From: Acidiphilium acidophilum
GTDB taxonomy: Bacteria; Pseudomonadota; Alphaproteobacteria; Acetobacterales; Acetobacteraceae
NCBI RefSeq assembly: GCF_033842475.1
Contig: NZ_JAWXYB010000018.1
Coordinates: 1-64,000 of the forward strand
DNA length: 64,000 nucleotides
Direction of reading: 5' to 3'
Shown here piece after piece: positions 16,313 to 59,345 of this stretch. How positions within the stretch are numbered: position 1 is the stretch's first letter; each line of letters begins with the position of its first letter. The position numbers were made by a program, and so were the translations under genes. Below the pieces are notes generated by a model. It saw only the letters and a program-made list of their open reading frames with translations, was not told the origin of the DNA and did not search any database.

Positions 16313-17494
16313 ATGGACGCCAAAAAGGATACGATTATCGAGGCACTTTTGGAACATCTGATCGAAAACGGCGCAGGCGATATCGCCACGGTATTTGCCA
16401 GGACCTTCGAACTCGCCATGCAGATCGAGCGCGAACGCTTCCTCCACGCCAGTCACTACGAGCGCAACCCCGATCGTCAGGGTTACGCCAATGGCTACAA
16501 GCCCAAGCGGATCGATACCCCGGCCGGGTCGATCACCGTCGATGTCCCCAAAACCGCCGGTCACGTGGGCGAACCCTTCTACCCACAGTCCCTCGAACGC
16601 GGCCGACGCTCGGTCCGCGCCGTCATGGTCGCCGTCGCCGAAATGTACATCAAAGGCGTCTCCACCCGCGACGTCGAGGCCGTCATGCGCGAATTCGGCA
16701 TCGAAAGCCTCTCCTCCGCTCAGGTCAGCCGCGCCAGCAAGCTGCTCGATGACGAACTCGCCGCCTGGCGCACCCGACCCCTCGCCGAGATCCGCTACCT
16801 CATCCTCGACGCCAGATATGAAAAAATGCGCGATAATGGCGTCGTCCGCGATGCCGCCGTGCTCTCGGCCATCGGCATCGGACCCGATGAACGCCGCCGT
16901 GTCCTCGGCGTCTCGGTCGCCCTTTCCGAGGCCGAAGTCCATTGGCGTGCCTTCCTCGAAAGCCTCCATCAGCGTGGCCTGCGAGGCGTCGAATTCATCG
17001 TCTCCGATGACCATGCCGGATTGCACGCCGCACGCCGCGCCGTCTTCGGCGCCGCACACTGGCAACGATGCCAGTTCCACCTCGCCCAAAACGCCATCCA
17101 CCACGCCCCCAACCACGCCATCCGCAAACGCATCGGCGCAGAACTCCGGACCGTCTGGAACGCAAATTCCCTCGCCGCTGCCCAGATCGCTCTCACAACC
17201 CTCGTCAATGCCTATCGCGACACCGCACCAAAGCTCGCCGATTGGCTCGAACGAAATATCCCCGAAGGCCTCACCGTCTTCACACTGCCAGAACCCCACC
17301 AGCGCCGGCTTCGCACTTCCAACCCCATGGAACGCGGCATCCAGCAGGAACTCAAACGCCGCACCACCAAAATCAGGGTCTTCCCCAACGAAGCCTCCCT
17401 CGAACGCCTCGTCAGCGCCGTCCTCGTCGAAATCGATGAAAAATGGGCCGCCGACACCAAGGGCTACATCAAGTGGGACTACCAGGATGCCTGA
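16313..17494 (+). CDS. IS256-family transposase, copy 1
   Basis: 393 aa Mutator-type DDE transposase. ATG at 16313 follows ggagaccgatga. The catalytic residues by family position are D166 (LILDARYE), D232 (IVSDDHAGL) and E340 (NPMERGIQQE); the CQFHLAQN and RVFPNEASLERL segments are also conserved. An N-terminal part (YERNPDRQGYANGYKPK) binds the element ends in relatives. The protein is identical in copies 2, 3 and 4, indicating recent spread. Confidence 0.95.
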   Translation: MDAKKDTIIEALLEHLIENGAGDIATVFARTFELAMQIERERFLHASHYERNPDRQGYANGYKPKRIDTPAGSITVDVPKTAGHVGEPFYPQSLERGRRSVRAVMVAVAEMYIKGVSTRDVEAVMREFGIESLSSAQVSRASKLLDDELAAWRTRPLAEIRYLILDARYEKMRDNGVVRDAAVLSAIGIGPDERRRVLGVSVALSEAEVHWRAFLESLHQRGLRGVEFIVSDDHAGLHAARRAVFGAAHWQRCQFHLAQNAIHHAPNHAIRKRIGAELRTVWNANSLAAAQIALTTLVNAYRDTAPKLADWLERNIPEGLTVFTLPEPHQRRLRTSNPMERGIQQELKRRTTKIRVFPNEASLERLVSAVLVEIDEKWAADTKGYIKWDYQDA

Positions 17495-19563
17495 CCCCCG
17501 CTCGCCCTATTTTCCAGACATCAGGTTGCTCAATCCTAATCGCCGCTTGGTTTGGTGTTCTGTTGCATTAGTTCTGCTCTGCTTGACGCCAATTGCCTAC
17601 GCGAACCAGACGGCGTCGCTTTGGTCCCGCCACCATCTTTTCGGAGACTGGGGCGGTATTCGACCGTTCCTTGCCGCGCACGGGGTGAAGCTCGGGGCGG
17701 TTGAGCAACCGGTGCCATCGGACGTTCTTGGCGGCGGTGCCAAACAGGGAAAAGCCTTCGCTGGCTTGCTCACCTTATCTGCGCGGGTCCACCTCGGACG
17801 CTACACCGGCATCGACGGCTTGTCGGCCTATGTCTCCGCCTGGATCGTGCAAGGTCACGGACCAACCGCCTATTACGTCCACAGCCTGAGCGGCCTGTCA
17901 TATGAGGAGGCTACCGATGGCGCTCGACTGGGAGATGCCTACCTCAATTGGCGGGCACCGCACGATGTAATCCATATCAAGATCGGTAAATTCGGTATCG
18001 ATGAGAATTTCGATCAGAATCCGGCGGCGTCGATGCTGGTGAATTCCAACTTCACCTACCGCAACATCATGGCGAACAACTTGCCGGGTGGTGGACCAGC
18101 CTATTCGTATGAAGGCCCCGGTGTGATGATCGCCTTTCAGGCGACACGCCAACTCCGGCTGCGCGGGGGCTTGTTCAGCGGCGATCCGCTCGGACAGCCA
18201 CTCGAAGGGCCGGCACCCCCCGCTCGCGATTCCAACGGCCTGATCTTTCCGCTCAATACCGGCGCGTTGATGATCGGCGAAGCGGATTATGCCTATCATC
18301 TGCCCGGACTTGGCGAGGGTGAGGTTCTTGCCGGTGGTCTCTATGATACATTGAGTCGGCCCGATCTCCTCTATAGTGTAACCGGACACAGCCTCGCTTT
18401 CAACGCGATCGGTCTCAATGTAGGCACGCCTCGACCAGACCATGGGGATTATGTGATTTATGCTGGCGATACCCAGACTCTTTGGCACGGACGAGGCAGC
18501 CGTCGGCTACGCCTATTTTCGCGTATCGCCTATGCCCCACCAAGCCACAATCTGATTTCACTGGATGTGCAGGGCGGCATCGTTCTGAACGGCACCTTCC
18601 CCGGCCGATCGCATGATTCCGCCGCTTTTGCTATTTCCTACGATCGGATCAGCGCGCGGAAAATCAGCTTGATTCGCGCTGAAAATGCTTTAGGCGGAGC
18701 GGATAAGCCGCTTCCAAGTGCAGAGACCGATTTTGAGCTGGACTACACTGCACGAATTGCGCCGTGGCTGACCACGACCCCCGATCTGCAATATATCCTG
18801 CATCCTGGCGGCGGTATTCCAGACCCGGAGGATCGCACGAAAATCGAACCGAACGCTGTTGTGGCACAAATGGAGTTCACAATCGTGTTTTAATCGTCGA
18901 CCCGGTCTGGCCGCGTAACCATTCACACCCCCCCTTTCTTGCCTCGAATGAAGCGTTAGCCAACGGCCGGTAAAATGTCGAAAGGCTGGGCTTGCTTTTC
19001 CACCCGAACCGGACTCTACGATTCTGATGCCCCGTCAGAGAATCCCCGGCCTGAAAGACATTAAACGTACTGATTTATCTGCGATGTCGCGCGTCGAGCT
19101 TGAAGAACTGACCTGGGATTTACATGAATTGGCGCGAGCGCTGGCAAACCATGCCGGCGAGGATTCAACAACCAGTTCCCGTCCGCCTTCCAGCGACAAT
19201 CCCTACCGGCGTAACACCAAGAGCGGGCAAAGTTCTGAGCGCTCCGACCGGGACGACAAAACCGATGGGGGTGGTGGTTCCGCGCCGGGCGGCAACGCTT
19301 CCGCCGGCAACCCTGGACCCAAGCCGGCCGGCAAACGGCCAGGGACGAAAGGGTTTTGGCGCCGGTTGCCGATTATAGTCAGCGGTGAACTCCTGCATGC
19401 GCCGACAGCGTGCGACGCATGCCGTGCAGTTTTCGGATCTTCCACCGTCTCGCAAAGCCGCCAAGTCAGCGCTCATCTGAGCTTTGAACTCACCCGCGGC
19501 GACATGAGCCTTCATGTCGCAGCCACGAAACATTGCTATCTGGCGATACGCTGCGACTGTGGC

Positions 19564-19593
19564 CATAATGCCGAGATCCGGATTATGCCGCAT
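19564..19593 (+). repeat. Left end repeat of RIT element 1
   Basis: Thirty bases matching the reverse complement of 22878-22907 with one mismatch; contains two opposed copies of the ataatgccg/cggattatg module. Confidence 0.85.
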
Positions 19594-19683
19594 CTGCTCG
19601 GCAGGGCGCGGTTGACGGTATGATCGCACCAATCCCATTCGGCATAATCTTCGTCGCTCCAACAACCATGGAGCACGACGATC

Positions 19684-20895
19684 ATGCCTCAATATTTGCA
19701 GACCTGCATCGAGCCGTATCTGGACTCGTTCGCCGAGAGCTTTGCGGCGGAGAATTACACCGCCGGCACGGTCAAGACCTACCAATCGATCCTGCGGAAG
19801 GTGGGGCACGCGATGGATGTCGAGGGCATCAGTCCTTCGGCGTTGACGCTCGACATGGCCGAGCATCTGGGACGCAAGGTGCCGCGCAAGAAGACGGGCT
19901 CGGTATGGCCGTATAGGTTGGCCCGACGGTTCGCGCAGCATCTGCTCGATATCGGCGTCACGCAGCCGGTGCCGTTGACCGAGGCGCAGCAGGCGCGCGC
20001 TATCCTGCTGGCGAACTTCGAGACCTATCTGGTCAAGCATCGCGGCCTGAGTCCGCGGACGATCTATCACACGCTGCGGTTCGCCAACCGGTTCCTCGAT
20101 CATCGCTTTGGTGATGCGATAGTTGATCCGGGGCGGTTGCGGCCTGCCGACGTGATCAGCTTCATCGAGCATGTGTTGGCAGGCGCGCGTCGCGACAAAA
20201 CGGTGGCAACGCATGTTCGTATCTTCCTGCAATATCTGTTCGGCAGCGGCGCGACAGCGACCAATCTGGCGCTGAGCGTACCTAGGGCGGCGAAGCGCTG
20301 GGGCGCACGACTGCCGCGCCATCTGTCGCCCGAGGGCGTCGAGGCGGTGCTCGCCTGCGTGCGCGACAGCCCCCGGCACGGCGCTCGGGACTATGCGATG
20401 CTGCTCATCATGGCCCGGCTCGGCTTGCGCGCTGCCGAGGTCATCGCGATCCAGCTGGACGATATCAACTGGCGCGCGGGCGAACTCTTGGTGCGTGGCA
20501 AGGGGAAGCTCCACGATCGCGTGCCGATCAGCGCGGAGGTTGGCGAGGCCCTCAGCCGCTATCTGCGCGAGGAACGCGGACCCGCGTCCTGCCGCACGAT
20601 GTTCGTCACCCATCGCGCGCCGTACCGTCCGTTCAAGGACAGCCAGATCGTCAACGCCGTTCTCAAGGATGCGCTGAAGGCGACTGGCCAGAAGCCGGTA
20701 ACGCCCTATGTGGGATCGCACCTGCTGCGTCATAGCCTTGCCACCCAGTTAGTGAACTCGGGTGCATCGCTCGACGAGGTGGGCGATGTGCTGCGGCACC
20801 GCTCACGCACATCAACGATGATATATGCCCGTCTCGACATCGATGGGCTGCGGTCAGTGGCAATGCCTTGGCCCGGGGCGGGAGGCGCGCAATGA
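19684..20895 (+). CDS. RIT tyrosine recombinase, first of trio (element 1)
   Basis: 403 aa. Longest of the three, with an N-terminal extension (YLDSFAESFAAENY, residues 10-40) before the SAM-like core-binding domain. The catalytic pattern is R249 (ARLGLRAAEV), H346 and R349 (HLLRHSLA), H372 (VLRHRSRTS) and nucleophile Y381 (MIYARLD). Complete active site. Its stop overlaps the start of the second recombinase (ATGA at 20892), so the three are co-translated. Contains a basic GKGKLHD beta-hairpin typical of the family. Confidence 0.9.
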   Translation: MPQYLQTCIEPYLDSFAESFAAENYTAGTVKTYQSILRKVGHAMDVEGISPSALTLDMAEHLGRKVPRKKTGSVWPYRLARRFAQHLLDIGVTQPVPLTEAQQARAILLANFETYLVKHRGLSPRTIYHTLRFANRFLDHRFGDAIVDPGRLRPADVISFIEHVLAGARRDKTVATHVRIFLQYLFGSGATATNLALSVPRAAKRWGARLPRHLSPEGVEAVLACVRDSPRHGARDYAMLLIMARLGLRAAEVIAIQLDDINWRAGELLVRGKGKLHDRVPISAEVGEALSRYLREERGPASCRTMFVTHRAPYRPFKDSQIVNAVLKDALKATGQKPVTPYVGSHLLRHSLATQLVNSGASLDEVGDVLRHRSRTSTMIYARLDIDGLRSVAMPWPGAGGAQ

Positions 20896-21833
20896 GCCTC
20901 ACCTCCCAACTCGACCGCTATCTGGCTGTGCGGCGCCGCCTCGGCTACGACCTGAGCACCAGCGAGCGCATCCTTCGCCGCTTCACCCGGTTCGCCGACA
21001 GCGAGCGTGTGACGCATATCGACACGGCGCTGTTCCTGCGTTGGCACGCTACGCTCGGCGAGGCCAACGGCATGACGCGAGCGGCGCGGCTTACCGCCGT
21101 GCGCCTCTTCGCGCAGTGGCTGAGCAGCTTCGATCCGGCGCATGAACCCCCACCACGGAGCCTGTTGCCGGACACTGTCATGCGCTCGCGTCCGCATATC
21201 TACAGCAATGCCGAGGTCGCTTCGATTATCGCGGCCGCAAAGGCGCTGCCGTCGATCTGCGGGTTGCGCGGGCTGACCTGCTCGACGCTGTTCGCGCTCA
21301 TCGCGGTCACGGGCTTGCGCATCAGCGAGGCGCTCGCGCTCGATAGGAACGACCTCGACGCCGATAATGGTGTGCTGCGCGTCCGACAGGGCAAGAACGG
21401 CAAGGAGCGGTTGCTGCCGCTCGACCCCAGCACCGTCGAGCGACTGCTCAACTATCGCATCGAACGCGATCGGCTAATCGGTCATCCGGCGGTGCCGCTG
21501 TTCGTAACCGACAAGGCGACCCGGCTCACCGACTGCACGGCCCGCTACAACTTCGCGCAGGCGTGCCAGCAGATCGGCTTGCGATCCGAGCAGCAGTACC
21601 ATCGGCATGGCCGAGGGCCACGCATCCACGATCTGCGCCACACCTTCGCCGTGCGCACGATGATCGACTGGTACCGGACCGGCAAGGATCCGGCGCGCGA
21701 GATGATCCGGTTGACGACCTATCTGGGTCATAGCAGTCCCTCTGGAACATACTGGTATCTGGAGGCGGTCCCGGAACTGCTCGATCTGGCGATAGCCCGT
21801 GCCACCGCGAGCGGCGGGGAGTTGGCACAATGA
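20892..21833 (+). CDS. RIT tyrosine recombinase, second of trio (element 1)
   Basis: 313 aa from the ATG at 20892 that overlaps the first recombinase stop. Core-binding domain about residues 1-90 (RYLAVRRRLGYDLSTSERIL), catalytic domain with R143 (VTGLRISEALAL), H246 and R249 (HDLRHTFAVRT), H280 (YLGHSS) and a YWYL nucleophile region (Y287/Y289). The spacing between HDLRH and LGH is longer than in the other two proteins. Overlaps the third gene at 21830. Confidence 0.9.
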   Translation: MSLTSQLDRYLAVRRRLGYDLSTSERILRRFTRFADSERVTHIDTALFLRWHATLGEANGMTRAARLTAVRLFAQWLSSFDPAHEPPPRSLLPDTVMRSRPHIYSNAEVASIIAAAKALPSICGLRGLTCSTLFALIAVTGLRISEALALDRNDLDADNGVLRVRQGKNGKERLLPLDPSTVERLLNYRIERDRLIGHPAVPLFVTDKATRLTDCTARYNFAQACQQIGLRSEQQYHRHGRGPRIHDLRHTFAVRTMIDWYRTGKDPAREMIRLTTYLGHSSPSGTYWYLEAVPELLDLAIARATASGGELAQ

Positions 21834-22822
21834 ACGCCGTCACCTTGCCCGCGCTGATCCAGCGCTTCTTCACCGACCGGCTTTGCACGCAACTGGAGGC
21901 GAGCCGACATACGGTCGCCGGCTATCGCGATACGTTCCGGCTGCTGCTCAGATATGCGAGCGCCCGCCGCAAAAAGCCGCCGGTCAACCTGACGGTCGAA
22001 GACATCGACGCCGATCTGGTCGCAGACTTCCTCACCCACACCGAGACCGCGCGGGGTAATAGCGCTCGTAGCCGCAACACCCGGCTCGCCGCCATCCGAT
22101 CGTTCTTTCGCTTCGTCGCGATGACCGATCCGACCTGGCTGCTGCACTGCCAGCGTATCCTCGCCATGCCCAACAAGCGCTATGTGAAGCGTGCGGTCAC
22201 GTTCCTCGATGCCGAGGAAATGGCGGCGTTGCTGGCGGCCCCGGATCGTACGACATGGGCGGGGCGGCGCGACCATGCTCTGCTGCTGCTCGCGATCCAG
22301 ACAGGCCTTCGGGCTTCCGAACTGGTCGGTCTCACGCAGGGCGATGTCGTGCTGGGGACCGGCGCGCATATCCGTTGCATGGGTAAGGGCCGGAAGGAGC
22401 GCGCCACCCCGCTTCGCCGCGAGACAGCCAAGCTGCTGGCAGCGTGGATTGGCAACGACAAAGATGCGGACAAGCCGCTGTTCCCCTCGATCCGGGGCGA
22501 ACGGCTGAGCCGTGACGCTCTTGAACATCTGGTCCGCAAACATTGCCTCACGGCGTCGCGCGCCTGCCCGAGCATCGGCACCAAGCGGGTCACGCCACAT
22601 ACGCTGCGCCACAGCACGGCGATGGACCTGCTTCACCACGGCGTCGATCAAGCGGTGATCGCGCTCTGGCTTGGTCACGAAAACATCGAGACCACCCAGA
22701 TCTACATCCATGCCGACATGCGGATGAAAGAAAAGGCGCTCGCTCGCGTCGCCGCCCCAGCCACGCCGCCAGGCCGGTTCCGGCCCGACGATCAACTCCT
22801 CGCGTTCCTGGAAGCGCTCTGA
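21830..22822 (+). CDS. RIT tyrosine recombinase, third of trio (element 1)
   Basis: 330 aa, ATG at 21830 overlapping the preceding stop. N-terminal core-binding region (RFFTDRLCTQLEASRHTV, YRDTFRLLLRYA) and catalytic segments TGLRASELVGL, GKGRKERATPL, HTLRHSTAMDL, WLGHENIETTQ and the tyrosine in IYIHADM. This is the most XerC/D-like member. The C-terminus (FRPDDQLLAFLEAL) is shared almost exactly with the third gene of RIT element 2, indicating a conserved trio-specific tail. Confidence 0.9.
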   Translation: MNAVTLPALIQRFFTDRLCTQLEASRHTVAGYRDTFRLLLRYASARRKKPPVNLTVEDIDADLVADFLTHTETARGNSARSRNTRLAAIRSFFRFVAMTDPTWLLHCQRILAMPNKRYVKRAVTFLDAEEMAALLAAPDRTTWAGRRDHALLLLAIQTGLRASELVGLTQGDVVLGTGAHIRCMGKGRKERATPLRRETAKLLAAWIGNDKDADKPLFPSIRGERLSRDALEHLVRKHCLTASRACPSIGTKRVTPHTLRHSTAMDLLHHGVDQAVIALWLGHENIETTQIYIHADMRMKEKALARVAAPATPPGRFRPDDQLLAFLEAL

Positions 22823-22877
22823 TTATGCCGAACAGCCGCATGGCCAATGCCGGGCTATCCGGCCTCCAGCTGAGGCC

Positions 22878-22907
22878 ATGCGGCATAATCCGGATCGCGG
22901 CATTATG
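22878..22907 (-). repeat. Right end repeat of RIT element 1
   Basis: Inverted partner of 19564-19593. Followed by the extra near-palindrome at 22914-22931 that has no counterpart at the left end. Confidence 0.85.
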
Positions 22908-24231
22908 ACAATTATGCCGACATCGGCATAAGGGCCACGAGACCATCGCACGCCCCGCAACCGGACTGTGCTCACATGTCGAGGGGCGCCGGCGCGACCT
23001 GCTGATGAGCGAGCGCTGCCTGGTTGGCCCGATGCTCGCCACCTTCATCGCGGCGCTGTCGCTGCGTTTCCGCCTCTCGCGCGTCAAGATCGCTGAATTC
23101 CTGGCTGACTGGCTGGGCGTTGAGCTCGGGATTGCCACCATCGAACGCTGCATTCACGAATTCGGTCTGGCGAGCGAACCCGTGGTCGAGCAATTGATCG
23201 AAGATGTGCGTGCGGCTGACATCGTCCATCTCGACGAAACCCCGTGGTATCAAAAGGCAAGTCTGCTGTGGCTCTGGGTTGCGGTGACGGCAACCACGAT
23301 CGTCTATCGGATCGGCAGCCGCAAGCACTGCGAATTGGCCGCGCTGATCGGCGAGGCCTTTCTGGGTTGGCTCGTCACCGACGGTTACGGTGCCTATCGC
23401 GATCATCCACGCCGCCAGAGATGTCTGGCGCACCTGATCCGTAAGGCCCGCGCGCTGGCAGAGGGGCATTACGGCGCGGGATCAGGCTTCGGCAGCGATC
23501 TGGTCCGCGATCTGCGCCGCCTGATCGAGCGCGTGCATGACGGCGACGACCCCGCCGCCATCAAGCGCCTGACCGCGAGCATCAAATGGAACTGTCAATG
23601 CAATCGCCATGAGATCGATGCGAAAGTTCGCGGGCTGGCAGGTGAAATCCTCAATGACTGGGACGCAGTGGTCGCCTTCGTCGCCGATCGGGATTTACCG
23701 CCCACCAACAATGATGCCGAACGTGCGCTCCGCCACGCGGTGATCTCGAGGCGCATCAGCTTTGGCACGCGATCCGATGAAGGGAGCCGGTTCTATGCCG
23801 CCGCGCTCAGCGTCATTGACACCTGCCGCAAGCGTGGCACTGATCCATGGGCCTATGCCTGCGCCCTCATCACCGCCGCACGAGCTAACAATCTGCTGCC
23901 CACAATCCCTGCCCAGGTAGCGGTCTGACCCGGGGGGTGTGAACGGTTACCTGGCCGCGTGGTGTCAGTCATATTCGCCTTTAAGCACATGACGACATCT
24001 ACTTTTTTGACCATCCGGACGCCAATATTTCTTTTTTCGTTCCGGTTTCCGCGCTATAGTACCAGTATAATCAAATGTCGTAGAATAAACATTATGGAAA
24101 CTTCTGGCGCATCCGTAATGAGATCTATCCGCGATCAGCGGCGGCGCGGATCAATGCAAGAGTTCGATACAGGCCGTGTACAAATTTACTATAGGGTAGC
24201 AGACTAAACAGGGCGAGGATCAGGCCCAGAT

Positions 24232-35863: not shown

Positions 35864-37216
35864 GGTGGTGTAACCTGACGTCTGGAAATTCATTTTGGGT
35901 TGGGAGTTGGTGCCCTTGCCGGGGCATGCCCCGGCAAGGGCTGTTCATTCTGGTATTCCATGCAGTTGTTCACACCAACATGGAGACCGATGAATGGACG
36001 CCAAAAAGGATACGATTATCGAGGCACTTTTGGAACATCTGATCGAAAACGGCGCAGGCGATATCGCCACGGTATTTGCCAGGACCTTCGAACTCGCCAT
36101 GCAGATCGAGCGCGAACGCTTCCTCCACGCCAGTCACTACGAGCGCAACCCCGATCGTCAGGGTTACGCCAATGGCTACAAGCCCAAGCGGATCGATACC
36201 CCGGCCGGGTCGATCACCGTCGATGTCCCCAAAACCGCCGGTCACGTGGGCGAACCCTTCTACCCACAGTCCCTCGAACGCGGCCGACGCTCGGTCCGCG
36301 CCGTCATGGTCGCCGTCGCCGAAATGTACATCAAAGGCGTCTCCACCCGCGACGTCGAGGCCGTCATGCGCGAATTCGGCATCGAAAGCCTCTCCTCCGC
36401 TCAGGTCAGCCGCGCCAGCAAGCTGCTCGATGACGAACTCGCCGCCTGGCGCACCCGACCCCTCGCCGAGATCCGCTACCTCATCCTCGACGCCAGATAT
36501 GAAAAAATGCGCGATAATGGCGTCGTCCGCGATGCCGCCGTGCTCTCGGCCATCGGCATCGGACCCGATGAACGCCGCCGTGTCCTCGGCGTCTCGGTCG
36601 CCCTTTCCGAGGCCGAAGTCCATTGGCGTGCCTTCCTCGAAAGCCTCCATCAGCGTGGCCTGCGAGGCGTCGAATTCATCGTCTCCGATGACCATGCCGG
36701 ATTGCACGCCGCACGCCGCGCCGTCTTCGGCGCCGCACACTGGCAACGATGCCAGTTCCACCTCGCCCAAAACGCCATCCACCACGCCCCCAACCACGCC
36801 ATCCGCAAACGCATCGGCGCAGAACTCCGGACCGTCTGGAACGCAAATTCCCTCGCCGCTGCCCAGATCGCTCTCACAACCCTCGTCAATGCCTATCGCG
36901 ACACCGCACCAAAGCTCGCCGATTGGCTCGAACGAAATATCCCCGAAGGCCTCACCGTCTTCACACTGCCAGAACCCCACCAGCGCCGGCTTCGCACTTC
37001 CAACCCCATGGAACGCGGCATCCAGCAGGAACTCAAACGCCGCACCACCAAAATCAGGGTCTTCCCCAACGAAGCCTCCCTCGAACGCCTCGTCAGCGCC
37101 GTCCTCGTCGAAATCGATGAAAAATGGGCCGCCGACACCAAGGGCTACATCAAGTGGGACTACCAGGATGCCTGACCCCCGCTCGCCCTATTTTCCAGAC
37201 ATCAGGTTGCTCAATC
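35864..37216 (+). mobile_element. IS256-family element, copy 2 (1353 bp)
   Basis: Same ends and length as copy 1. The duplication acgtaggcc (9 bp) is seen at 35855-35863 and 37217-37225. Confidence 0.95.
35994..37175 (+). CDS. IS256-family transposase, copy 2
   Basis: 393 aa, identical in protein sequence to copy 1, with the same D166/D232/E340 residues and the same upstream palindrome at 35912-35941. Oriented opposite to the membrane protein gene it interrupts. Confidence 0.95.
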   Translation: MDAKKDTIIEALLEHLIENGAGDIATVFARTFELAMQIERERFLHASHYERNPDRQGYANGYKPKRIDTPAGSITVDVPKTAGHVGEPFYPQSLERGRRSVRAVMVAVAEMYIKGVSTRDVEAVMREFGIESLSSAQVSRASKLLDDELAAWRTRPLAEIRYLILDARYEKMRDNGVVRDAAVLSAIGIGPDERRRVLGVSVALSEAEVHWRAFLESLHQRGLRGVEFIVSDDHAGLHAARRAVFGAAHWQRCQFHLAQNAIHHAPNHAIRKRIGAELRTVWNANSLAAAQIALTTLVNAYRDTAPKLADWLERNIPEGLTVFTLPEPHQRRLRTSNPMERGIQQELKRRTTKIRVFPNEASLERLVSAVLVEIDEKWAADTKGYIKWDYQDA

Positions 37217-37713: not shown

Positions 37714-37945
37714 GATCGAAAACTTCGGTTGATAGTATCCATCCGGCGAAGACCGCGTCCTGATAGCCGCTCGGCGTTCACGGATCGCTGTAGTGGGGTG
37801 ATCAGGCGACCTGTGCGACTGGGTTGTGGTTTTGCGGATCGATCCAGTTCCAAGGCATCAGTTCCTCGATCCGGTGGACCGGATGGCCGGCGATGCGCGC
37901 GAGGATGTCGGCGAGCCAGGCCTGCGGATCGACATCGTTCATTTT

Positions 37946-37984
37946 TGCCGTTTATGCCGTCCGCCGAACTATGCCGAATGGTTT
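37946..37984 (+). repeat. Left end repeat of RIT element 2
   Basis: Perfect 39-base inverted match to 41318-41356; contains three copies of the atgccg module in alternating spacing. Confidence 0.9.
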
Positions 37985-38074
37985 TATTTTTGCCCTAAAT
38001 GGCGATGACCTGGACTTGATGGGTTCGGCATAGTTTGTCCCCTGCCTCCGCTTTCAACAGCGGAGAATAGGAAC

Positions 38075-39316
38075 ATGAATTGTGAAGAGTATTTGCTTAG
38101 AAGCCGGCTGTACCAGCGTCTCAAGGGCGGGCAGCACGGCCAGCTTGTCGAGCGCTACGCAGCACGTATTGTGAGAGACGGGCTCGTTCGACACGGCGTC
38201 TGGCGATCTTTCAATGTGGTCGGGGGGCTGTTGAGTTGGATCGCAAGCCGTCGCAGCACGGTGGCGGATCTCGATGAACGAGTGACCGAAAAATATCTCC
38301 GGCATCGGGCTCGGAAGCAGTCTATCCAGCCTGGCGACCGATCCGCGCTGAAGCGATGGCTATCGGTATTGCGCGAGGAAGGTGCGATCGCGCCAGCGGT
38401 GATGCCGCCTGCCACCTCGCGAGATCGGATTTTTAGTGAATTCGCTGCCTATCTGAGGACAGAGCGCGGCCTGACCCCGAAGTCCATCGTTCGTCATCTC
38501 CCGCCTATCCGCAGGTTCCTGCACGAGGTGTGCCCCGCCGGCGACGCCGACCTAGGCAAGATCAGTCAGGTGGAAGTGATCCGCTATATCGAGCGCCACG
38601 CCCAGGATTGGAGCCCTGCAACTGGGAAGGGGATGTGCTCGTCGCTGCGAGTCTTCCTTCGTTACCTCCACCATCAAGGGCTGAACCCTCGCGCGTTGGC
38701 CCATTGTGTGCCGTCCATGCGACGATGGAAATTCGCGGCACTGCCCACTTTTCTGACCGCCACCCAAGTTCAGAGGGCGCTTGACGGTTGCGACCGGGCA
38801 ACCCCTATGGGACGGCGAGACTACGCCATTCTGATGATGCTGGCTAAGCTCGGCCTCCGCGCCGGCGAGGTAGCGACCCTCACCTTGGATGATATCGACT
38901 GGCGTACCGGCGAGATTCTCGTTCGTGCCAAGGGCCGACAGCGCGCACGAATGCCGATCTTGCCGGATGTTGGCGCGGCCATCGTTGCATATCTACGCGA
39001 TGGCCGTCCACAGGCCTCGTGTCGGCAATTGTTTATTCGCACGCTCGCGCCTCATCTCGGCTTTGCTTCTGGGTGTGCGATCACGATGATCGCCAAAATG
39101 GCTCTTGATCGCGTCGGAATTGAGGGCTGCGCACACCGCGGTGCCCATATCTTCCGGCACAGCCTCGCCACCGAACTGCTTCGGTCCGGCGCAACCTTGT
39201 CCCAGATTGGTCAGCTGCTGCGGCACGAGAGCCACGACACCACCCGGATATACGCGAAGGTCGATATCGAAACGCTGCGGACATTGAGTCGGCCCTGGCC
39301 GGGAGGCGCGCAATGA
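38075..39316 (+). CDS. RIT tyrosine recombinase, first of trio (element 2)
   Basis: 413 aa; ggagaataggaac precedes the ATG at 38075. N-terminal extension (YLLRSRLYQRLKGGQH), core-binding domain around residues 115-215, catalytic segments KLGLRAGEVATL, RAKGRQRARMPI, HIFRHSLATEL, LLRHESHDTTR and nucleophile Tyr in IYAKVDI. Active site complete. The ending PWPGGAQ matches the ending PWPGAGGAQ of the first recombinase of element 1. Overlaps the next gene by ATGA. Confidence 0.9.
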   Translation: MNCEEYLLRSRLYQRLKGGQHGQLVERYAARIVRDGLVRHGVWRSFNVVGGLLSWIASRRSTVADLDERVTEKYLRHRARKQSIQPGDRSALKRWLSVLREEGAIAPAVMPPATSRDRIFSEFAAYLRTERGLTPKSIVRHLPPIRRFLHEVCPAGDADLGKISQVEVIRYIERHAQDWSPATGKGMCSSLRVFLRYLHHQGLNPRALAHCVPSMRRWKFAALPTFLTATQVQRALDGCDRATPMGRRDYAILMMLAKLGLRAGEVATLTLDDIDWRTGEILVRAKGRQRARMPILPDVGAAIVAYLRDGRPQASCRQLFIRTLAPHLGFASGCAITMIAKMALDRVGIEGCAHRGAHIFRHSLATELLRSGATLSQIGQLLRHESHDTTRIYAKVDIETLRTLSRPWPGGAQ

Positions 39317-40239
39317 TCGACCTAAGATCCGCTCTCGAGAAATATCTAAGTATGCGCAAGGGACTTGGATATAAGTACGAGCAACAAACCCGGCGGCTCC
39401 GCGACTTTGTCGCATTCATGGAGAAGCGCAAGGCTAAAACCATCACTACCAAGCTCGCGATGGAATGGGCGACACTGCCGCCTGATCGGCATGCGTATTG
39501 GGCTTTGCGGTTGAGCGACGTGCGCGGGTTCGCGCGCCATGTCTCCAACTTCGATCCGACAACGGAGGTACCCCCAGCCGGCGTCCTGCCGGGATGGAAG
39601 CGTGCGAAGCCTCATATCTACAGCGACGCGCAAATCGATGATCTGCTGGCGGCGGCTCTGGCTTTGCCGCCAGAGAGGGGCCTGCGGCGATGGACCTACC
39701 ATACACTGTTCGGCCTGATCGCGGTCACCGGTATGCGTCTCTCTGAGGCGATGGGGATTGAGCGTGACGATGTCGACCTCGACAAGGGGGTGCTGACGGT
39801 CCGGCTGACCAAGTTCGGCAAATCACGACTCTTGCCATTGCATCCAACGACCAGCGCCGCGCTGCGCAGCTACGCCAACCGGCGCGATGCGCATCTCGGC
39901 CCGCGCTGCGGTTCGACCTTCTTCGTCGCCGAACAGGGTGGCCGCCTGCTGCACCAGTACGTCCATCGCGTCTTCTGGCGCCTGTCCCATGAGATCGGGC
40001 TGCGGCGCCCTGGCGATCGTACCGGGCCACGCGTGCATGACTTCCGGCACCGCTTTGCTATCCGGACGCTGCTCGATTGGCATCGCGAAGGCAAGAACGT
40101 CGAACAGAAACTTCCGGCACTCTCCACCTACCTCGGCCACACCTGTGTACGCGATACATACTGGTATCTCTCGGCCTGCCCTGAGTTGATGGAAGAAGCG
40201 GCGCGGTGCCTCGATCGGCGATGGGAGGCGACGCCATGA
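39313..40239 (+). CDS. RIT tyrosine recombinase, second of trio (element 2)
   Basis: 308 aa. Core-binding region with YLSMRKGLGYKYEQQTRRL and catalytic segments VTGMRLSEAMGI, KFGKSRLLPLHP, HDFRHRFAIRT, YLGHTCVRDTYWYLS. As in element 1 the tyrosine region is YWYL and the HDFRH-LGH spacing is long, so this is the same trio class. Start overlaps the previous stop and stop overlaps the next start. Confidence 0.9.
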   Translation: MIDLRSALEKYLSMRKGLGYKYEQQTRRLRDFVAFMEKRKAKTITTKLAMEWATLPPDRHAYWALRLSDVRGFARHVSNFDPTTEVPPAGVLPGWKRAKPHIYSDAQIDDLLAAALALPPERGLRRWTYHTLFGLIAVTGMRLSEAMGIERDDVDLDKGVLTVRLTKFGKSRLLPLHPTTSAALRSYANRRDAHLGPRCGSTFFVAEQGGRLLHQYVHRVFWRLSHEIGLRRPGDRTGPRVHDFRHRFAIRTLLDWHREGKNVEQKLPALSTYLGHTCVRDTYWYLSACPELMEEAARCLDRRWEATP

Positions 40240-41237
40240 AGCCCCCCTGCAATATCGCCACGTTGATCGAGCGCTACTTCACCGAGTGGCTCATACGCCA
40301 GCGTAACGTCAGCTCCAACACGATCGCATCCTACCGGGATACGTTCCGGCTACTGTTCAGGTTCGCACAAATGCGGCTCCATAAGCCCCCTTCGGATTTG
40401 GCACTCAGCGACCTAGATGCACCGTTTATCGGTGGATTCTTAATCGATCTTGAGATGAAGCGCGGTGCCAGCCCCAAGACTCGCAACCTGCGCCTTACAG
40501 CCATCAGGGCCTTCTTCCGATTCGTATCGTTCGAGGAGCCGGCACACAGCGCGCTGATCCAGCGCGTGCTCGCGATACCGAGCAAGCGCCACGATAAGCG
40601 ACAGGTGCACTTCCTGACACGTCCCGAGATTGAGGCCATTCTCGCCGCGACCGATCGGACGACGTGGCTCGGCCGCCGCGATCACACCTTGCTGCTTCTA
40701 GCAGTCCAGACGGGCTTGCGCCTCTCCGAGTTGATCAGTCTCGACAGGGAGGCAGTCCACCTCGGCGCCGGCGCTCATGTCCGGTGCGTCGGCAAGGGGC
40801 GGAAGGAGCGAGCCACGCCGCTATCCACCATTGCTCGAGGTGCGCTCCAGGCATGGCTGAAGGAGCCTGCCCGGAAAGGAGGAACTGTTCTGTTCCCCAA
40901 CATGCACGGTGGGCGACTCAGTGCCGACAGCGTCCAGTCGCTACTGGCGAAGTATGTGAAGGTCGCCACCGAAAATTGTGCGTCGTTAAAGTCGAAGCGG
41001 GTGTCGCCCCACGTGTTGAGGCACAGCGCGGCCATGGAGTTGCTGCAGGCGGGCGTCGACTGCTCCGTGATCGCGCTTTGGCTCGGTCATGAATCGATCG
41101 AGACGACACAGACCTATCTGCATGCACATATCGCCCTCAAGGAGGCCGCATTGGCAAAGCTCACGCCATACCAGAGCGGAAAGAAAACGCGCTTCCGCCC
41201 CGACGACCGATTACTCGCCTTCTTGGAAGCGCTCTGA
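40236..41237 (+). CDS. RIT tyrosine recombinase, third of trio (element 2)
   Basis: 333 aa from the ATG at 40236 in an ATGA overlap (an upstream frame start at 40206 is inside the previous gene). Segments YRDTFRLLFRFAQ, QTGLRLSELISL, GKGRKERATPLS, HVLRHSAAMELL, WLGHESIETTQTYLHA. Ends FRPDDRLLAFLEAL, nearly the same as element 1. Confidence 0.9.
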   Translation: MKPPCNIATLIERYFTEWLIRQRNVSSNTIASYRDTFRLLFRFAQMRLHKPPSDLALSDLDAPFIGGFLIDLEMKRGASPKTRNLRLTAIRAFFRFVSFEEPAHSALIQRVLAIPSKRHDKRQVHFLTRPEIEAILAATDRTTWLGRRDHTLLLLAVQTGLRLSELISLDREAVHLGAGAHVRCVGKGRKERATPLSTIARGALQAWLKEPARKGGTVLFPNMHGGRLSADSVQSLLAKYVKVATENCASLKSKRVSPHVLRHSAAMELLQAGVDCSVIALWLGHESIETTQTYLHAHIALKEAALAKLTPYQSGKKTRFRPDDRLLAFLEAL

Positions 41238-41317
41238 CTGGCTAAACTATGCCGAATGAAACGGAATCAACTGCCACGGAAGAACCGAGAGAAACTCGAC
41301 AACCGTGCATTTTTCGG

Positions 41318-41356
41318 AAACCATTCGGCATAGTTCGGCGGACGGCATAAACGGCA
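41318..41356 (-). repeat. Right end repeat of RIT element 2
   Basis: Perfect inverted partner of 37946-37984, followed by the extra palindrome at 41357-41378. Confidence 0.9.
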
Positions 41357-42977
41357 TTATGCCGCGCCCGGCATAATGCTGTCGTGATCAGGGTGTACAT
41401 CATGGCGGCCCTTTCCCCACCCCGGTCGGAACCGGCGAATAACCATGATTTTCTGCCCAGAGCCAGGGTCCGCAGGGCGCGTTCGGCCGCGTTGTTGGTC
41501 AGGCAGATCCGCCCGTCGGTCAGGAACCGCGTGAACGCCGACCAACGGTTCAGCATGTAGTCCATCGCCTTTGCGACATCGTTGTGCCGCGAGAGTTTGG
41601 CCCGCTCGGCACGCATCCAACTTTCCAGTTCGGTGACCAGCGGGGCGCTGAGCTGTTGGCGCGCCGCCAGGCGTTCAGCCGGCAACTGGCCGTTGATGCC
41701 CCGCTCGATTTCAAACAGCGCGTCGATCCGCTGCACCGCGGCCAGCGCCATCGGGGCGACGAAGGCAGGCGTCTTGCCTTGCGCGCGGCGTTTGGCGTTT
41801 CGAGCGATGTCGGCCAGTTCGAAGAATTTTCGTCGCCCGTGCGCCCAACACGCCGCTTCGATGATCGGGCCAGGGGATCGGGTCGGCACGTACAATTTGT
41901 TGTAGCCGCCATAAGCATCCGCCTGGAATATCCCGCTGTATTCGGCAAGATGACTTTGCGGGTGAATGCCGGCGCGGTCGCGGGAATAATAGAACACCGC
42001 GCAGGGTGGACCCGATCCGCCAAACGGTCGATCGTCGCGCACATAAACCCAGACGCGGGCGATATCGGTCTGACCCTGCGCAAGCACCGGCACGGTGGTG
42101 TCATCGCCGTGGATCCGACCGCCGGTGAACACCATGGTTTTGATGAAGGCATACACCGGCTTAAGCGCGACACAGGTGGCGCCGATCAGATCGGCCAGGG
42201 TCGAGACGCTGAGCGCAACGCCTTCCAGGCCGAACCGTTCGGATTGGCGGTTCAGCGGCTGATGCAGGCCAAACTTGTCGTAGGCGATCATCGCGAGCAG
42301 GCTGGGACCGGCGAAGGCGCGCGGAATGGTGTGGAAGGGTGCGGGTTCCTGGCTGATCTTCTCACAATCGCGGCAGGTGAATTTCTCCCGCACATGCTGG
42401 ATTACCTTGAACGTTCGCGGGGTGGATTCCAACGTCTCGGTGACACTCTCCCCGAGCTTGGCCAGGCGCGAGCCACCGCAGCAGAAGCACTGGGTCGGCC
42501 CCGGCAGGACAACCCGCTCGCGGAGCAGGTGCTCGGGGAAGGGCTGGCGCGACGGGCGCTTGCGGGTGAAGCCGGCGACAGTCGTGGTTTTGGCCTTCGC
42601 GGCTTCCTGCTCGGCATGTAGTTCGTCCTCGGTGGCACTGGTCTCGAGCTCTTCGAGTTTCAGCTCCATCTGGTCGAGCAGCCGGGCCGTGCGTTCCGCC
42701 CTGGGGCCGTAGAGGGCGCGCTTGAGCTTCTCGATCTGCAGCTTCAGATGCTCGACATAGGCGGCGGTATCGGACTGCGCGGCGCGCGCTGCGGCTGAAT
42801 CCGCTTCGGCGGCATCAGCTCGCGACATCGCTCCTCGAACGATCTCTTTCAGCGCGGCAATGTCGTCCGGCAGGGCCAGCGAATCGATATCCATGCATCG
42901 GATAGAATCATAAACCGCTTGGGTTTCGCTACAGAAATCCGTAGCAAACAGCAGGTTTTTACCCTGATTTTTTGCAC

Positions 42978-43325
42978 TTACCCGGCAGATTGTGGCCGCC
43001 AGGTTTGTTGCGGATTTCTCCAGTCGATCGCCTCCAGAAGATAACCGACCTGACCCGCCGTAAGTGACACAGCCCCATCCGTCGTCTGTGGCCAGATAAA
43101 ACGGCCCTTGTCCAAACGCTTCGCAAATAGCGATAACCCGACACCGTCATGCCAGATCGCCTTGATCAACGATCCGCTGCGTCCCCGGAAGAAGAAAACG
43201 TCACCGCAGAATGGCTCCCGGCCCAGGCCTTGCTGCACCTGCAACGCGAGACCCCTCATCCCGCGACGCATATCCGTGTGCCCCGACGCCAGCCAGATCC
43301 GTACGCCGGCTGGAACCGGGATCAT
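42978..43325 (-). CDS. tnpB: IS66 accessory protein TnpB
   Basis: 115 aa. Typical IS66 Orf2: IWLASGHTDMRRGMRGLALQ, then FRGRSGSLIKAIWHDGVGL, and KGRFIWPQ near the end. Required with TnpA and TnpC for IS66 transposition. Starts in an ATGA overlap with tnpA. Confidence 0.9.
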   Translation of the reverse strand: MIPVPAGVRIWLASGHTDMRRGMRGLALQVQQGLGREPFCGDVFFFRGRSGSLIKAIWHDGVGLSLFAKRLDKGRFIWPQTTDGAVSLTAGQVGYLLEAIDWRNPQQTWRPQSAG

Positions 43326-43747
43326 CGCCGCACCGCCGTCATCACACGACGCAAGGCGGCCATCCCAACCCCGTCATCAACCCGAACACAGGTGCCGTCC
43401 GGCAGCACGATCTCAATCCGCCCCATCTCGGATCGCGCTGCCCGCTTGTGCGACACAGAATCTGCATCGGTCTCATCCACCGAAGCTGATTTGCCAGACC
43501 CCCGCGGCATCGACAGCGCCGCACTCGCCATCATCCGCACCGGAATGAACTCCGGCTCTACCGGCACCCGTGCCAACTCACCGCGCCGAACCTGCCCGCG
43601 CCATTTCCACAACTGCCCTCGCGAAATATCGTGCCGCCGTGCCACCAAAGCAAATACCGCATCCGGCGCCTCAGCCTCTGCGACAATCCGAAGCTTGTCC
43701 TCATCCCGCCAGCGACGTCGCCGCTCAGTCCCCGTGATGATCTCCAT
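43322..43747 (-). CDS. tnpA: IS66 accessory protein TnpA
   Basis: 141 aa. N-terminal helix-turn-helix (RRRWRDEDKLRIVAEAEAPD, VARRHDISRGQLWKWR) like other IS66 Orf1 proteins; the C-terminus IEIVLPDGTCVRVDDGV is also conserved in the family. First gene of the tnpABC run. Confidence 0.9.
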   Translation of the reverse strand: MEIITGTERRRRWRDEDKLRIVAEAEAPDAVFALVARRHDISRGQLWKWRGQVRRGELARVPVEPEFIPVRMMASAALSMPRGSGKSASVDETDADSVSHKRAARSEMGRIEIVLPDGTCVRVDDGVGMAALRRVMTAVRR

Positions 43748-43963
43748 CCGCCAAAGCTCCCCCCATATGAATCAGCTCATAGCAGCGCTATTATGAGCGG
43801 CTTCTTCCCGTAGCGGCAGGCGGCTCAGACCGGATGGTTACGGTTGATATCGCAATGAGCGGATTCTTGAGGAGCTTGGTAGGACTTCGGCATGTCGCTC
43901 GCGAGCGTCGCATGGGGGGCTCTCCATCAATATTTCCTCCCTCGTAATGATACCTAACTCCCG

Positions 43964-55242: not shown

Positions 55243-56595
55243 GATTGAGCAACCTGATGTCTGGAAAATAGGGCGAGCGGGGGTCAGGCATCCTGGTAGT
55301 CCCACTTGATGTAGCCCTTGGTGTCGGCGGCCCATTTTTCATCGATTTCGACGAGGACGGCGCTGACGAGGCGTTCGAGGGAGGCTTCGTTGGGGAAGAC
55401 CCTGATTTTGGTGGTGCGGCGTTTGAGTTCCTGCTGGATGCCGCGTTCCATGGGGTTGGAAGTGCGAAGCCGGCGCTGGTGGGGTTCTGGCAGTGTGAAG
55501 ACGGTGAGGCCTTCGGGGATATTTCGTTCGAGCCAATCGGCGAGCTTTGGTGCGGTGTCGCGATAGGCATTGACGAGGGTTGTGAGAGCGATCTGGGCAG
55601 CGGCGAGGGAATTTGCGTTCCAGACGGTCCGGAGTTCTGCGCCGATGCGTTTGCGGATGGCGTGGTTGGGGGCGTGGTGGATGGCGTTTTGGGCGAGGTG
55701 GAACTGGCATCGTTGCCAGTGTGCGGCGCCGAAGACGGCGCGGCGTGCGGCGTGCAATCCGGCATGGTCATCGGAGACGATGAATTCGACGCCTCGCAGG
55801 CCACGCTGATGGAGGCTTTCGAGGAAGGCACGCCAATGGACTTCGGCCTCGGAAAGGGCGACCGAGACGCCGAGGACACGGCGGCGTTCATCGGGTCCGA
55901 TGCCGATGGCCGAGAGCACGGCGGCATCGCGGACGACGCCATTATCGCGCATTTTTTCATATCTGGCGTCGAGGATGAGGTAGCGGATCTCGGCGAGGGG
56001 TCGGGTGCGCCAGGCGGCGAGTTCGTCATCGAGCAGCTTGCTGGCGCGGCTGACCTGAGCGGAGGAGAGGCTTTCGATGCCGAATTCGCGCATGACGGCC
56101 TCGACGTCGCGGGTGGAGACGCCTTTGATGTACATTTCGGCGACGGCGACCATGACGGCGCGGACCGAGCGTCGGCCGCGTTCGAGGGACTGTGGGTAGA
56201 AGGGTTCGCCCACGTGACCGGCGGTTTTGGGGACATCGACGGTGATCGACCCGGCCGGGGTATCGATCCGCTTGGGCTTGTAGCCATTGGCGTAACCCTG
56301 ACGATCGGGGTTGCGCTCGTAGTGACTGGCGTGGAGGAAGCGTTCGCGCTCGATCTGCATGGCGAGTTCGAAGGTCCTGGCAAATACCGTGGCGATATCG
56401 CCTGCGCCGTTTTCGATCAGATGTTCCAAAAGTGCCTCGATAATCGTATCCTTTTTGGCGTCCATTCATCGGTCTCCATGTTGGTGTGAACAACTGCATG
56501 GAATACCAGAATGAACAGCCCTTGCCGGGGCATGCCCCGGCAAGGGCACCAACTCCCAACCCAAAATGAATTTCCAGACGTCAGGTTACACCACC
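55243..56595 (-). mobile_element. IS256-family element, copy 3 (1353 bp, inverted)
   Basis: Same ends in the opposite orientation, flanked by the 8-bp duplication aagcggag (55235-55242 and 56596-56603). Confidence 0.95.
55284..56465 (-). CDS. IS256-family transposase, copy 3
   Basis: 393 aa, identical in sequence to copies 1, 2 and 4. Same orientation as the gene it interrupts. The leader palindrome lies at 56518-56547. Confidence 0.95.
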   Translation of the reverse strand: MDAKKDTIIEALLEHLIENGAGDIATVFARTFELAMQIERERFLHASHYERNPDRQGYANGYKPKRIDTPAGSITVDVPKTAGHVGEPFYPQSLERGRRSVRAVMVAVAEMYIKGVSTRDVEAVMREFGIESLSSAQVSRASKLLDDELAAWRTRPLAEIRYLILDARYEKMRDNGVVRDAAVLSAIGIGPDERRRVLGVSVALSEAEVHWRAFLESLHQRGLRGVEFIVSDDHAGLHAARRAVFGAAHWQRCQFHLAQNAIHHAPNHAIRKRIGAELRTVWNANSLAAAQIALTTLVNAYRDTAPKLADWLERNIPEGLTVFTLPEPHQRRLRTSNPMERGIQQELKRRTTKIRVFPNEASLERLVSAVLVEIDEKWAADTKGYIKWDYQDA

Positions 56596-57992: not shown

Positions 57993-59345
57993 GGTGGTGT
58001 AACCTGACGTCTGGAAATTCATTTTGGGTTGGGAGTTGGTGCCCTTGCCGGGGCATGCCCCGGCAAGGGCTGTTCATTCTGGTATTCCATGCAGTTGTTC
58101 ACACCAACATGGAGACCGATGAATGGACGCCAAAAAGGATACGATTATCGAGGCACTTTTGGAACATCTGATCGAAAACGGCGCAGGCGATATCGCCACG
58201 GTATTTGCCAGGACCTTCGAACTCGCCATGCAGATCGAGCGCGAACGCTTCCTCCACGCCAGTCACTACGAGCGCAACCCCGATCGTCAGGGTTACGCCA
58301 ATGGCTACAAGCCCAAGCGGATCGATACCCCGGCCGGGTCGATCACCGTCGATGTCCCCAAAACCGCCGGTCACGTGGGCGAACCCTTCTACCCACAGTC
58401 CCTCGAACGCGGCCGACGCTCGGTCCGCGCCGTCATGGTCGCCGTCGCCGAAATGTACATCAAAGGCGTCTCCACCCGCGACGTCGAGGCCGTCATGCGC
58501 GAATTCGGCATCGAAAGCCTCTCCTCCGCTCAGGTCAGCCGCGCCAGCAAGCTGCTCGATGACGAACTCGCCGCCTGGCGCACCCGACCCCTCGCCGAGA
58601 TCCGCTACCTCATCCTCGACGCCAGATATGAAAAAATGCGCGATAATGGCGTCGTCCGCGATGCCGCCGTGCTCTCGGCCATCGGCATCGGACCCGATGA
58701 ACGCCGCCGTGTCCTCGGCGTCTCGGTCGCCCTTTCCGAGGCCGAAGTCCATTGGCGTGCCTTCCTCGAAAGCCTCCATCAGCGTGGCCTGCGAGGCGTC
58801 GAATTCATCGTCTCCGATGACCATGCCGGATTGCACGCCGCACGCCGCGCCGTCTTCGGCGCCGCACACTGGCAACGATGCCAGTTCCACCTCGCCCAAA
58901 ACGCCATCCACCACGCCCCCAACCACGCCATCCGCAAACGCATCGGCGCAGAACTCCGGACCGTCTGGAACGCAAATTCCCTCGCCGCTGCCCAGATCGC
59001 TCTCACAACCCTCGTCAATGCCTATCGCGACACCGCACCAAAGCTCGCCGATTGGCTCGAACGAAATATCCCCGAAGGCCTCACCGTCTTCACACTGCCA
59101 GAACCCCACCAGCGCCGGCTTCGCACTTCCAACCCCATGGAACGCGGCATCCAGCAGGAACTCAAACGCCGCACCACCAAAATCAGGGTCTTCCCCAACG
59201 AAGCCTCCCTCGAACGCCTCGTCAGCGCCGTCCTCGTCGAAATCGATGAAAAATGGGCCGCCGACACCAAGGGCTACATCAAGTGGGACTACCAGGATGC
59301 CTGACCCCCGCTCGCCCTATTTTCCAGACATCAGGTTGCTCAATC
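57993..59345 (+). mobile_element. IS256-family element, copy 4 (1353 bp)
   Basis: Flanked by the 8-bp duplication agacccgg (57985-57992 and 59346-59353). Opposite orientation to copy 3, 1.4 kb away. Confidence 0.95.
58123..59304 (+). CDS. IS256-family transposase, copy 4
   Basis: 393 aa, identical in sequence to copies 1-3; oriented against the ardC gene it splits. Palindrome at 58041-58070. Confidence 0.95.
   Translation: MDAKKDTIIEALLEHLIENGAGDIATVFARTFELAMQIERERFLHASHYERNPDRQGYANGYKPKRIDTPAGSITVDVPKTAGHVGEPFYPQSLERGRRSVRAVMVAVAEMYIKGVSTRDVEAVMREFGIESLSSAQVSRASKLLDDELAAWRTRPLAEIRYLILDARYEKMRDNGVVRDAAVLSAIGIGPDERRRVLGVSVALSEAEVHWRAFLESLHQRGLRGVEFIVSDDHAGLHAARRAVFGAAHWQRCQFHLAQNAIHHAPNHAIRKRIGAELRTVWNANSLAAAQIALTTLVNAYRDTAPKLADWLERNIPEGLTVFTLPEPHQRRLRTSNPMERGIQQELKRRTTKIRVFPNEASLERLVSAVLVEIDEKWAADTKGYIKWDYQDA

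Follow-up and report, generated by a model that had tools for sequence, protein, structure and literature searches.

The archetype of the recombinase-in-trio (RIT) elements is ritA1B1C1 of Cupriavidus metallidurans CH34. Elements of this type comprise a trio of genes, inverted repeats and an overlapping palindrome, and they occur in multiple copies (PMC3414803; this and all other papers are cited from partial texts). The CH34 element is reported to inactivate a tnpA gene of the IS66 family, and a RIT of pHG1 to adjoin such a gene (PMC2864759); others reside in radC or in a transposase gene (PMC3414803, PMC2864759). Terminal repeats of 34 bp are on record (PMC10214605), and a flattened table row of the same paper enters the target specificity of RITs as not formally tested. 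How three recombinases cleave four strands has been called difficult to understand, no convincing repeats were seen beyond the inverted repeat and the overlapping palindrome, and mobility was yet to be demonstrated (PMC3414803). We here describe RIT2, an element in a stretch of 64,000 nt from Acidiphilium acidophilum (contig NZ_JAWXYB010000018.1, positions 1 to 64,000; "the window" below). Its clade is very probably site-specific for one conserved junction in the IS66 transposase gene tnpC, Thr/Ser-Ala/Cys^Lys-x-Asn (the caret marks the junction), and would move via a circle with a two-site attachment site (attP).

RIT2 resembles the archetype in having three overlapping tyrosine recombinase genes in the order A-B-C, a length of about 3.5 kb, a palindrome that overlaps the inverted repeats, and identical copies within one genome. 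Several tyrosine recombinases also work together in GInt and in the strand-biased circularizing elements (SE), which insert site-specifically and display variant circle junctions (PMC5385486, PMC10214605). With these, RIT2 shares the multiple recombinases and the site-specific insertion; circles are known for GInt/SE and predicted for RIT2. Unlike RIT2, which consists of three recombinases only, GInt/SE have a fourth conserved gene and cargo. For such a gene (ginD or srap) RIT2 has no room, as only 80 nt separate ritC from the right repeat and 90 nt the left repeat from ritA. Tn554, too, has more than one tyrosine recombinase and a target specificity (PMC3414803, PMC10214605). Its gene set differs from that of RIT2. 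We know of no palindromic attP in Tn554. In the partial texts we found no statement that RITs have a target exact to the codon, retain overlaps or use an attP with two sites; an earlier report of IS66 as target is possible in Ricker et al. 2013 and Van Houdt et al. 2009. Literature on IS66 in combination with tyrosine recombinases, coupling sequences or RIT yielded no further title or abstract opening on RIT target specificity.

By comparison of copies and junctions, RIT2 covers 3431 bp (37946-41376, plus strand), which fits the known RIT length. The genes ritA (38075-39316), ritB (39313-40239) and ritC (40236-41237) are intact, all on the plus strand and joined by ATGA overlaps. NCBIfam and Pfam assign all three products to the tyrosine recombinase superfamily. 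In alignments with XerD, inspected by eye, RitA and RitC retain the motifs Arg, Lys, His-x-x-Arg, His and Tyr; RitB aligns more weakly. Pfam finds one SAM-like domain in RitA, at residues 122-202, preceded by about 120 residues; two core-binding domains in RitA are given as a trait of RIT elements in the parts seen of PMC8138268. The terminal inverted repeats (37946-37984, plus, on the ritA side; 41318-41356, minus, on the ritC side) are 39 nt long and 100% complementary. Next to the latter, towards the tnpC 5' part, lies an attP-like palindrome, TTATGCCG-CGCC-CGGCATAA (41357-41376), recognised by copy and junction comparison.

The host is an IS66 element on the minus strand (37735-43841 including the RIT), delimited by the end points common to differently flanked copies and by TnpB and TnpC matches. 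It has the marks of its family: TnpB, a TnpC with DDE and IS66_C domains (the latter seen in L138, see below), and an 8-bp target duplication, GGTTGATA, at 37727-37734 and 43842-43849. An unbroken tnpB (42978-43325) and a tnpA-like open reading frame (ORF; 43322-43747), named by position only, lie upstream of tnpC. RIT2 cuts tnpC into a 5' part of 506 codons ending ...YTLITTA (41377-42894), whose frame continues into the RIT end as a 550-aa ORF (41242-42894), and a 3' part of 47 codons, KMNDVDPQAW... plus stop (37802-37945). An earlier note, made from the letters of the window, had placed a RIT trio antisense in the 3' end of an IS66 tnpC, and ORFs, inverted repeats and copies at the same codon bear this out. 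The note also held that removal restores 553 aa, which is confirmed by 506 + 47 codons (counted by hand from the reading frames) and by L138, a RIT-free copy of the same IS66 type in another genome of the species, where a 554-aa ORF runs through the site. The junction falls at about residue 506, just within the IS66_C domain (501-538 in L138, Pfam). Of the proposed limits, 37946-41378, the left one stands and the right one moves by about 2 nt to 41376; the ends are ambiguous by up to 3 nt, since TGC is common to both.

The ritA of RIT2 occurs four times in the genome with 100% identity. All four copies sit at one codon junction of tnpC (T-A^K-x-N-D), one of them inverted (c18c, C18:99797-101035), and the position of RIT2 in tnpC is therefore not a matter of chance. 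All full-length copies of the window-type IS66 in the genome (4/4) carry RIT2. Multiple near-identical copies are a sign of RIT mobility, and RIT2 displays it: the two other copies on C18 are 100% identical to that of the window over 3431 nt and over 3411 nt aligned, and the C8 copy, whose ritB is split by an IS256-family element, has 1 mismatch in 3431 nt. The 5' part of tnpC is at least 99.9% identical to the window in the two former and 95.3% in C8.

The same junction recurs in relatives of RIT2. One genome per species was scanned with an alignment of 11 RitA sequences, and the best 80 of 449 relatives were kept; the three other copies of the source genome plus the window, five relatives from the order and eight plasmid loci were added. 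The flanks were searched for tnpC by iterated profiles of its half-sites, and a locus was counted when an IS66 half stood as far from ritA or ritC as expected. In most of the loci so placed, the tnpC 3' half begins 127-133 nt before ritA or 121-124 nt after ritC; exceptions are L049, L056 and L059 (87-100 nt) and L098, the start of which is miscalled. Enough flank was available at 93 of 101 places, and 69 of these 93 obeyed the position rule before a tree was built: 45/55 at RitA identities of at least 60%, 18/19 at 53-60%, and 6/19 at 44-53%. Eleven misses with at least 53% identity were inspected by eye. L098 does lie in IS66, its start being miscalled; the hits L112-, L113- and the second one of L118 are fragments; L070, L081 and L092 are truncated; L090 has a degenerate IS66-like flank; the remaining three, L015, L041 and L071, have other sites and are taken up below. 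In the RitA tree, 64 of 82 testable rows lie at the IS66 tnpC junction. These rows include four from the source genome and near-duplicates (L031/L044, L038/L079); four partial second hits (L112-, L113-, the second of L118, L069-) were left out, as were loci with a longest RitA HSP below about 250 aa, and L098 was entered as antisense by eye.

Along tnpC one meets the 5' part, a 6-nt overlap n, the palindrome (TATGCCG-N-CGGCATA), a 6-nt overlap i and an inverted repeat, then the RIT and the other repeat, which ends in CGGCATAA. A third overlap of 6 nt, c, comes next, and the 3' part follows with AAG or a similar codon. In the window, n is ACAGCA and encodes Thr-Ala of tnpC (41377-41382, minus), while i (41351-41356, plus) and c (37946-37951, minus) both read ACGGCA. 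All listed junctions, 42 on the tnpC 5' side and 61 on the 3' side, lie at the same codon. The palindrome was found by pattern at 40 of the 42 former and at none of the 61 latter; of the two pattern misses, resolved by eye, L063 has a diverged and L117 a displaced palindrome. Overlap i, although internal to the element, encodes Thr/Ser followed by Ala/Cys in 36 of 37 cases, as against 1.5% (60/4096) expected from uniform codons. Among 25 sets of junctions (L117 with Ns in n), n equals c in 10, n equals i in 9 and i equals c in 8; all three are equal in 5 and all different in 8. Empty relatives of the IS66 of L031 read ACTTGT or ACCTGT, and L031 itself has c=ACCTGT and n=i=ACAGCC, which implies that the target codons are kept on one side and that the other side is brought by the element. 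The i of the C8 copy, ACAGCA, is also the overlap that unoccupied sites of the window type show in a different genome of the genus (L142, L146).

The documented exact site, both orientations, repeated insertion, the palindrome on the 5' side and the tnpC codons in the overlaps can be accommodated by a single mechanism. The element would move through a circle, and its ends, once joined, would make up an attP that is palindromic and offers two equivalent sites for crossover, CGGCATAA-[6]-TTATGCCG-spacer-CGGCATAA-[6]-TTATGCCG. The attB in tnpC is asymmetric, and the recombinases would read it in one fixed polarity, which would explain why the palindrome stays on the 5' side. Crossover at either attP site would lead to either orientation, whence the nearly 1:1 ratio of orientations; the unused site would stay inside the new copy together with the overlap of the earlier host IS66, which would account for overlap i. 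The IS66, cut 47 codons from the end of its transposase gene, would then serve as a dispersed multi-copy landing site. In Tn916-type elements, an overlap of a few nucleotides from the previous site, the coupling sequence, likewise travels with the element. In contrast to these, RIT2 keeps a third overlap inside the integrated copy, and its target is one conserved coding site.

Could the common site simply have been inherited? A single ancient insertion, after which IS66::RIT composites moved and diverged as a unit, is very unlikely. The window copy and the inverted copy are each flanked by their own 8-bp IS66 target duplication (none was seen when it was looked for at the other two copies), and their IS66s are nearly identical; either the composites transpose, or the IS66 moved before the RIT entered. 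However, RIT and IS66 did not diverge together. The RITs of L034 and L079 are 99.5% identical over 3160 nt, whereas the adjoining tnpC (57 codons on the 5' side, 35 on the 3' side) is 56% and 65% identical in DNA and 50% and 44% in protein; the single mismatch in C8 against 95.3% in its tnpC tells the same. L082 and L084 have RITs of 97.5% identity in opposite orientation, with 38% protein identity in the tnpC 3' stretch. Beside RITs outside the source genome, the best TnpC matches share between 24% (L068) and 71% (L039) of their residues with the TnpC of the window. Of the 64 rows at the junction, 31 are antisense, 28 sense and 5 ambiguous; this requires at least 19 switches on the RitA tree, and the two labels show no clustering beyond that of shuffled labels (23 changes versus a mean of 25.4; 24 versus 23.8). 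RIT-free sites, moreover, are present in the same species (L138) and in the genus. Uncoupled divergence, orientation switches and the C8 comparison thus speak for rejecting a single ancestral insertion. Near-identical RITs in IS66s with about half-identical flanks indicate that insertion was repeated and site-specific; as judged from these alignments, the RITs choose the same tnpC site again and again.

Even less likely is that the two orientations arose in place, by inversion between the 39-bp repeats without excision and reinsertion. In its favour, the two repeats match perfectly, with 3.3 kb between them. In the inverted copy, however, the palindrome still lies on the tnpC 5' side, yet its asymmetric spacer follows the orientation of the RIT and not that of the IS66; inversion at the repeats would have left the spacer unturned, and we reject it in its simple form. 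Least likely of all is random insertion followed by selection for RITs in expendable mobile genes: many targets are indeed mobile or plasmid genes (tnpB and tnpC of IS66, ardC, an IS1634-family transposase gene), but such selection would not single out one tnpC codon with nearly constant half-site distances from ritA and ritC at all 42 + 61 listed junctions.

Some observations weigh against site-specific insertion through a two-site attP. Gene conversion between resident RITs could homogenise them and mimic part of the evidence for independent insertion. Within the IS66 clade, L015 and L041 share one insertion in an IS1634-family transposase gene, and L071 is inserted elsewhere. Relatives farther away, the majority of them from sphingomonads, have a different target gene; among the 13 misses with less than 53% identity, most are sphingomonads with a broken flank resembling a nucleotidyltransferase-HEPN gene. 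Many survey loci come from metagenome-assembled genomes or draft contigs, and the rows contain some near-duplicates. Overlap i differs from both flanking overlaps in only 13 of 25 sets, and in 5 all three agree. Finally, attP is deduced from junctions, and excision, circle and integration are steps postulated from them. The DNA at the L015/L041 site resembles the IS66 site (GGCAAGCCGAACAGG versus GCCAAGCTGAACGGG); as a secondary site, it may reveal the rule at the level of DNA.

The window holds another RIT, RIT1 (19561-22911), which interrupts the tnpC of a second IS66 at a codon other than that of RIT2. Its RitA is 39% identical to that of RIT2, so that the two trios are diverged, as the earlier note had stated. 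The note had further suggested a common preference of both for IS66. For the clade of RIT2 this holds more strictly than proposed, since the preference is for one exact codon junction of tnpC (64 of 82 testable rows). It fails as a preference common to RIT1 and RIT2: in 10 of 10 plasmid contexts fetched, RITs of the RIT1 clade are bordered on one side or both by zincin sequence of the ArdC type (seen by eye; by Pfam in L129 only). The target motifs at the two junctions, ACAGCA^AAAATGAAC for RIT2 and TGTGGCC^ACGAG for RIT1, differ. The second genomic copy of RIT1 (L014) lies in a gene for an AMP-binding enzyme. As the clade sits in ardC, this gene is an unusual site, and the IS66 of the window looks like a secondary one. 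Among 398 genomes of the phylum searched with the RitA of RIT1, only the source genome matched at E 1e-70. By eye, the internal overlap of RIT1, GACAA, equals the junction overlap of L014, and the internal overlap of L014, GGGCC, equals the junction of the window RIT1, as if each remembered the site of the other. That IS66 serves RITs as a carrier, as was also suggested, is unproven; tnpC is cut, and site recognition alone accounts for the pattern.

A third trio, RIT3 (C18:73246-76487, L012; C8 71.9-76.4 kb, L011), is inserted in tnpB of IS66s that carry RIT2 in tnpC; the IS66 copy at C18 73-82 kb holds both. In C8 the ritA of RIT3 is split, with an IS256-type ORF between the parts. The RIT3 site has the motif (T/V)D(M/F)R^(K/R)G at the two loci of the source genome and in all 6 of the plasmid relatives fetched (by pattern in the C18 locus, L158, L160 and L163; by eye in the C8 locus, L159, L161 and L162). 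An annotated IS66 tnpC lies on the far side in 5 of these 6; for L159 none is shown. The RITs of pHG1, taken as the CH34 relative named in PMC2864759, have a RitA 39% identical to that of RIT2 and a different tnpC motif, NNA^EN; the 5' half adjoins one ritA copy and the 3' half the other (by eye). In a wider RitA sample, IS66 abuts the ritA side in 7 of 34 places, counted by hand (at least 300 nt upstream, same-place repeats removed, ritA side only, six IS66 queries, so that diverged IS66s may be missed). A general preference of RITs for IS66 is thus unsupported: several clades target IS66, but RITs as a whole do not.

With a codon-exact attB, a palindrome as two-site attP and predicted circle junctions, the reaction of the three recombinases becomes directly testable. 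Recognising the DNA of a conserved protein motif opens a large, self-copying family of targets to a single element. RIT2 has the look of a parasite that has specialised in another parasite, and the locus is an example from nature of one mobile element preying on another. A broader view, which might equally well prove right or wrong, sees the RIT clades as a guild of hyperparasites, with lineages on different IS66 codon motifs (tnpB TDMR^KG, tnpC NNA^EN, tnpC TA^KxND). The palindromic attP would permit either orientation and store the codons of the earlier victim as a readable record of past hosts. Occupation could saturate and disable all IS66 copies of a type, as is suggested by the four of four occupied in the source genome.

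Some minor observations remain. A HEPN-nucleotidyltransferase-like gene was seen by eye beside ritC in the sphingomonad RITs L036, L094, L102, L103, L109, L111 and L116; in L036, Pfam finds these domains in the intact neighbouring gene. A broken copy of such a gene lies at the ritA end of L107, L111, L116 and L035 (by eye). Do sphingomonad RITs combine a broken target gene with a carried copy? L115 is placed in a gene whose product, judged by eye, looks like the C-terminal part of an error-prone DNA polymerase. L045, L060, L074, L078 and L083 are contigs of about 3.3-3.4 kb ending near the RIT ends, as expected of multi-copy repeats or circles. L048, L053, L054 and L059 have tnpC 3' halves of differing sequence on both sides and are likely recombination products of two IS66-borne copies; L110 has 5' halves on both sides. 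In the window, four identical IS256-family transposase ORFs of 1182 nt lie at 16313-17494, 35994-37175, 55284-56465 (minus strand) and 58123-59304.

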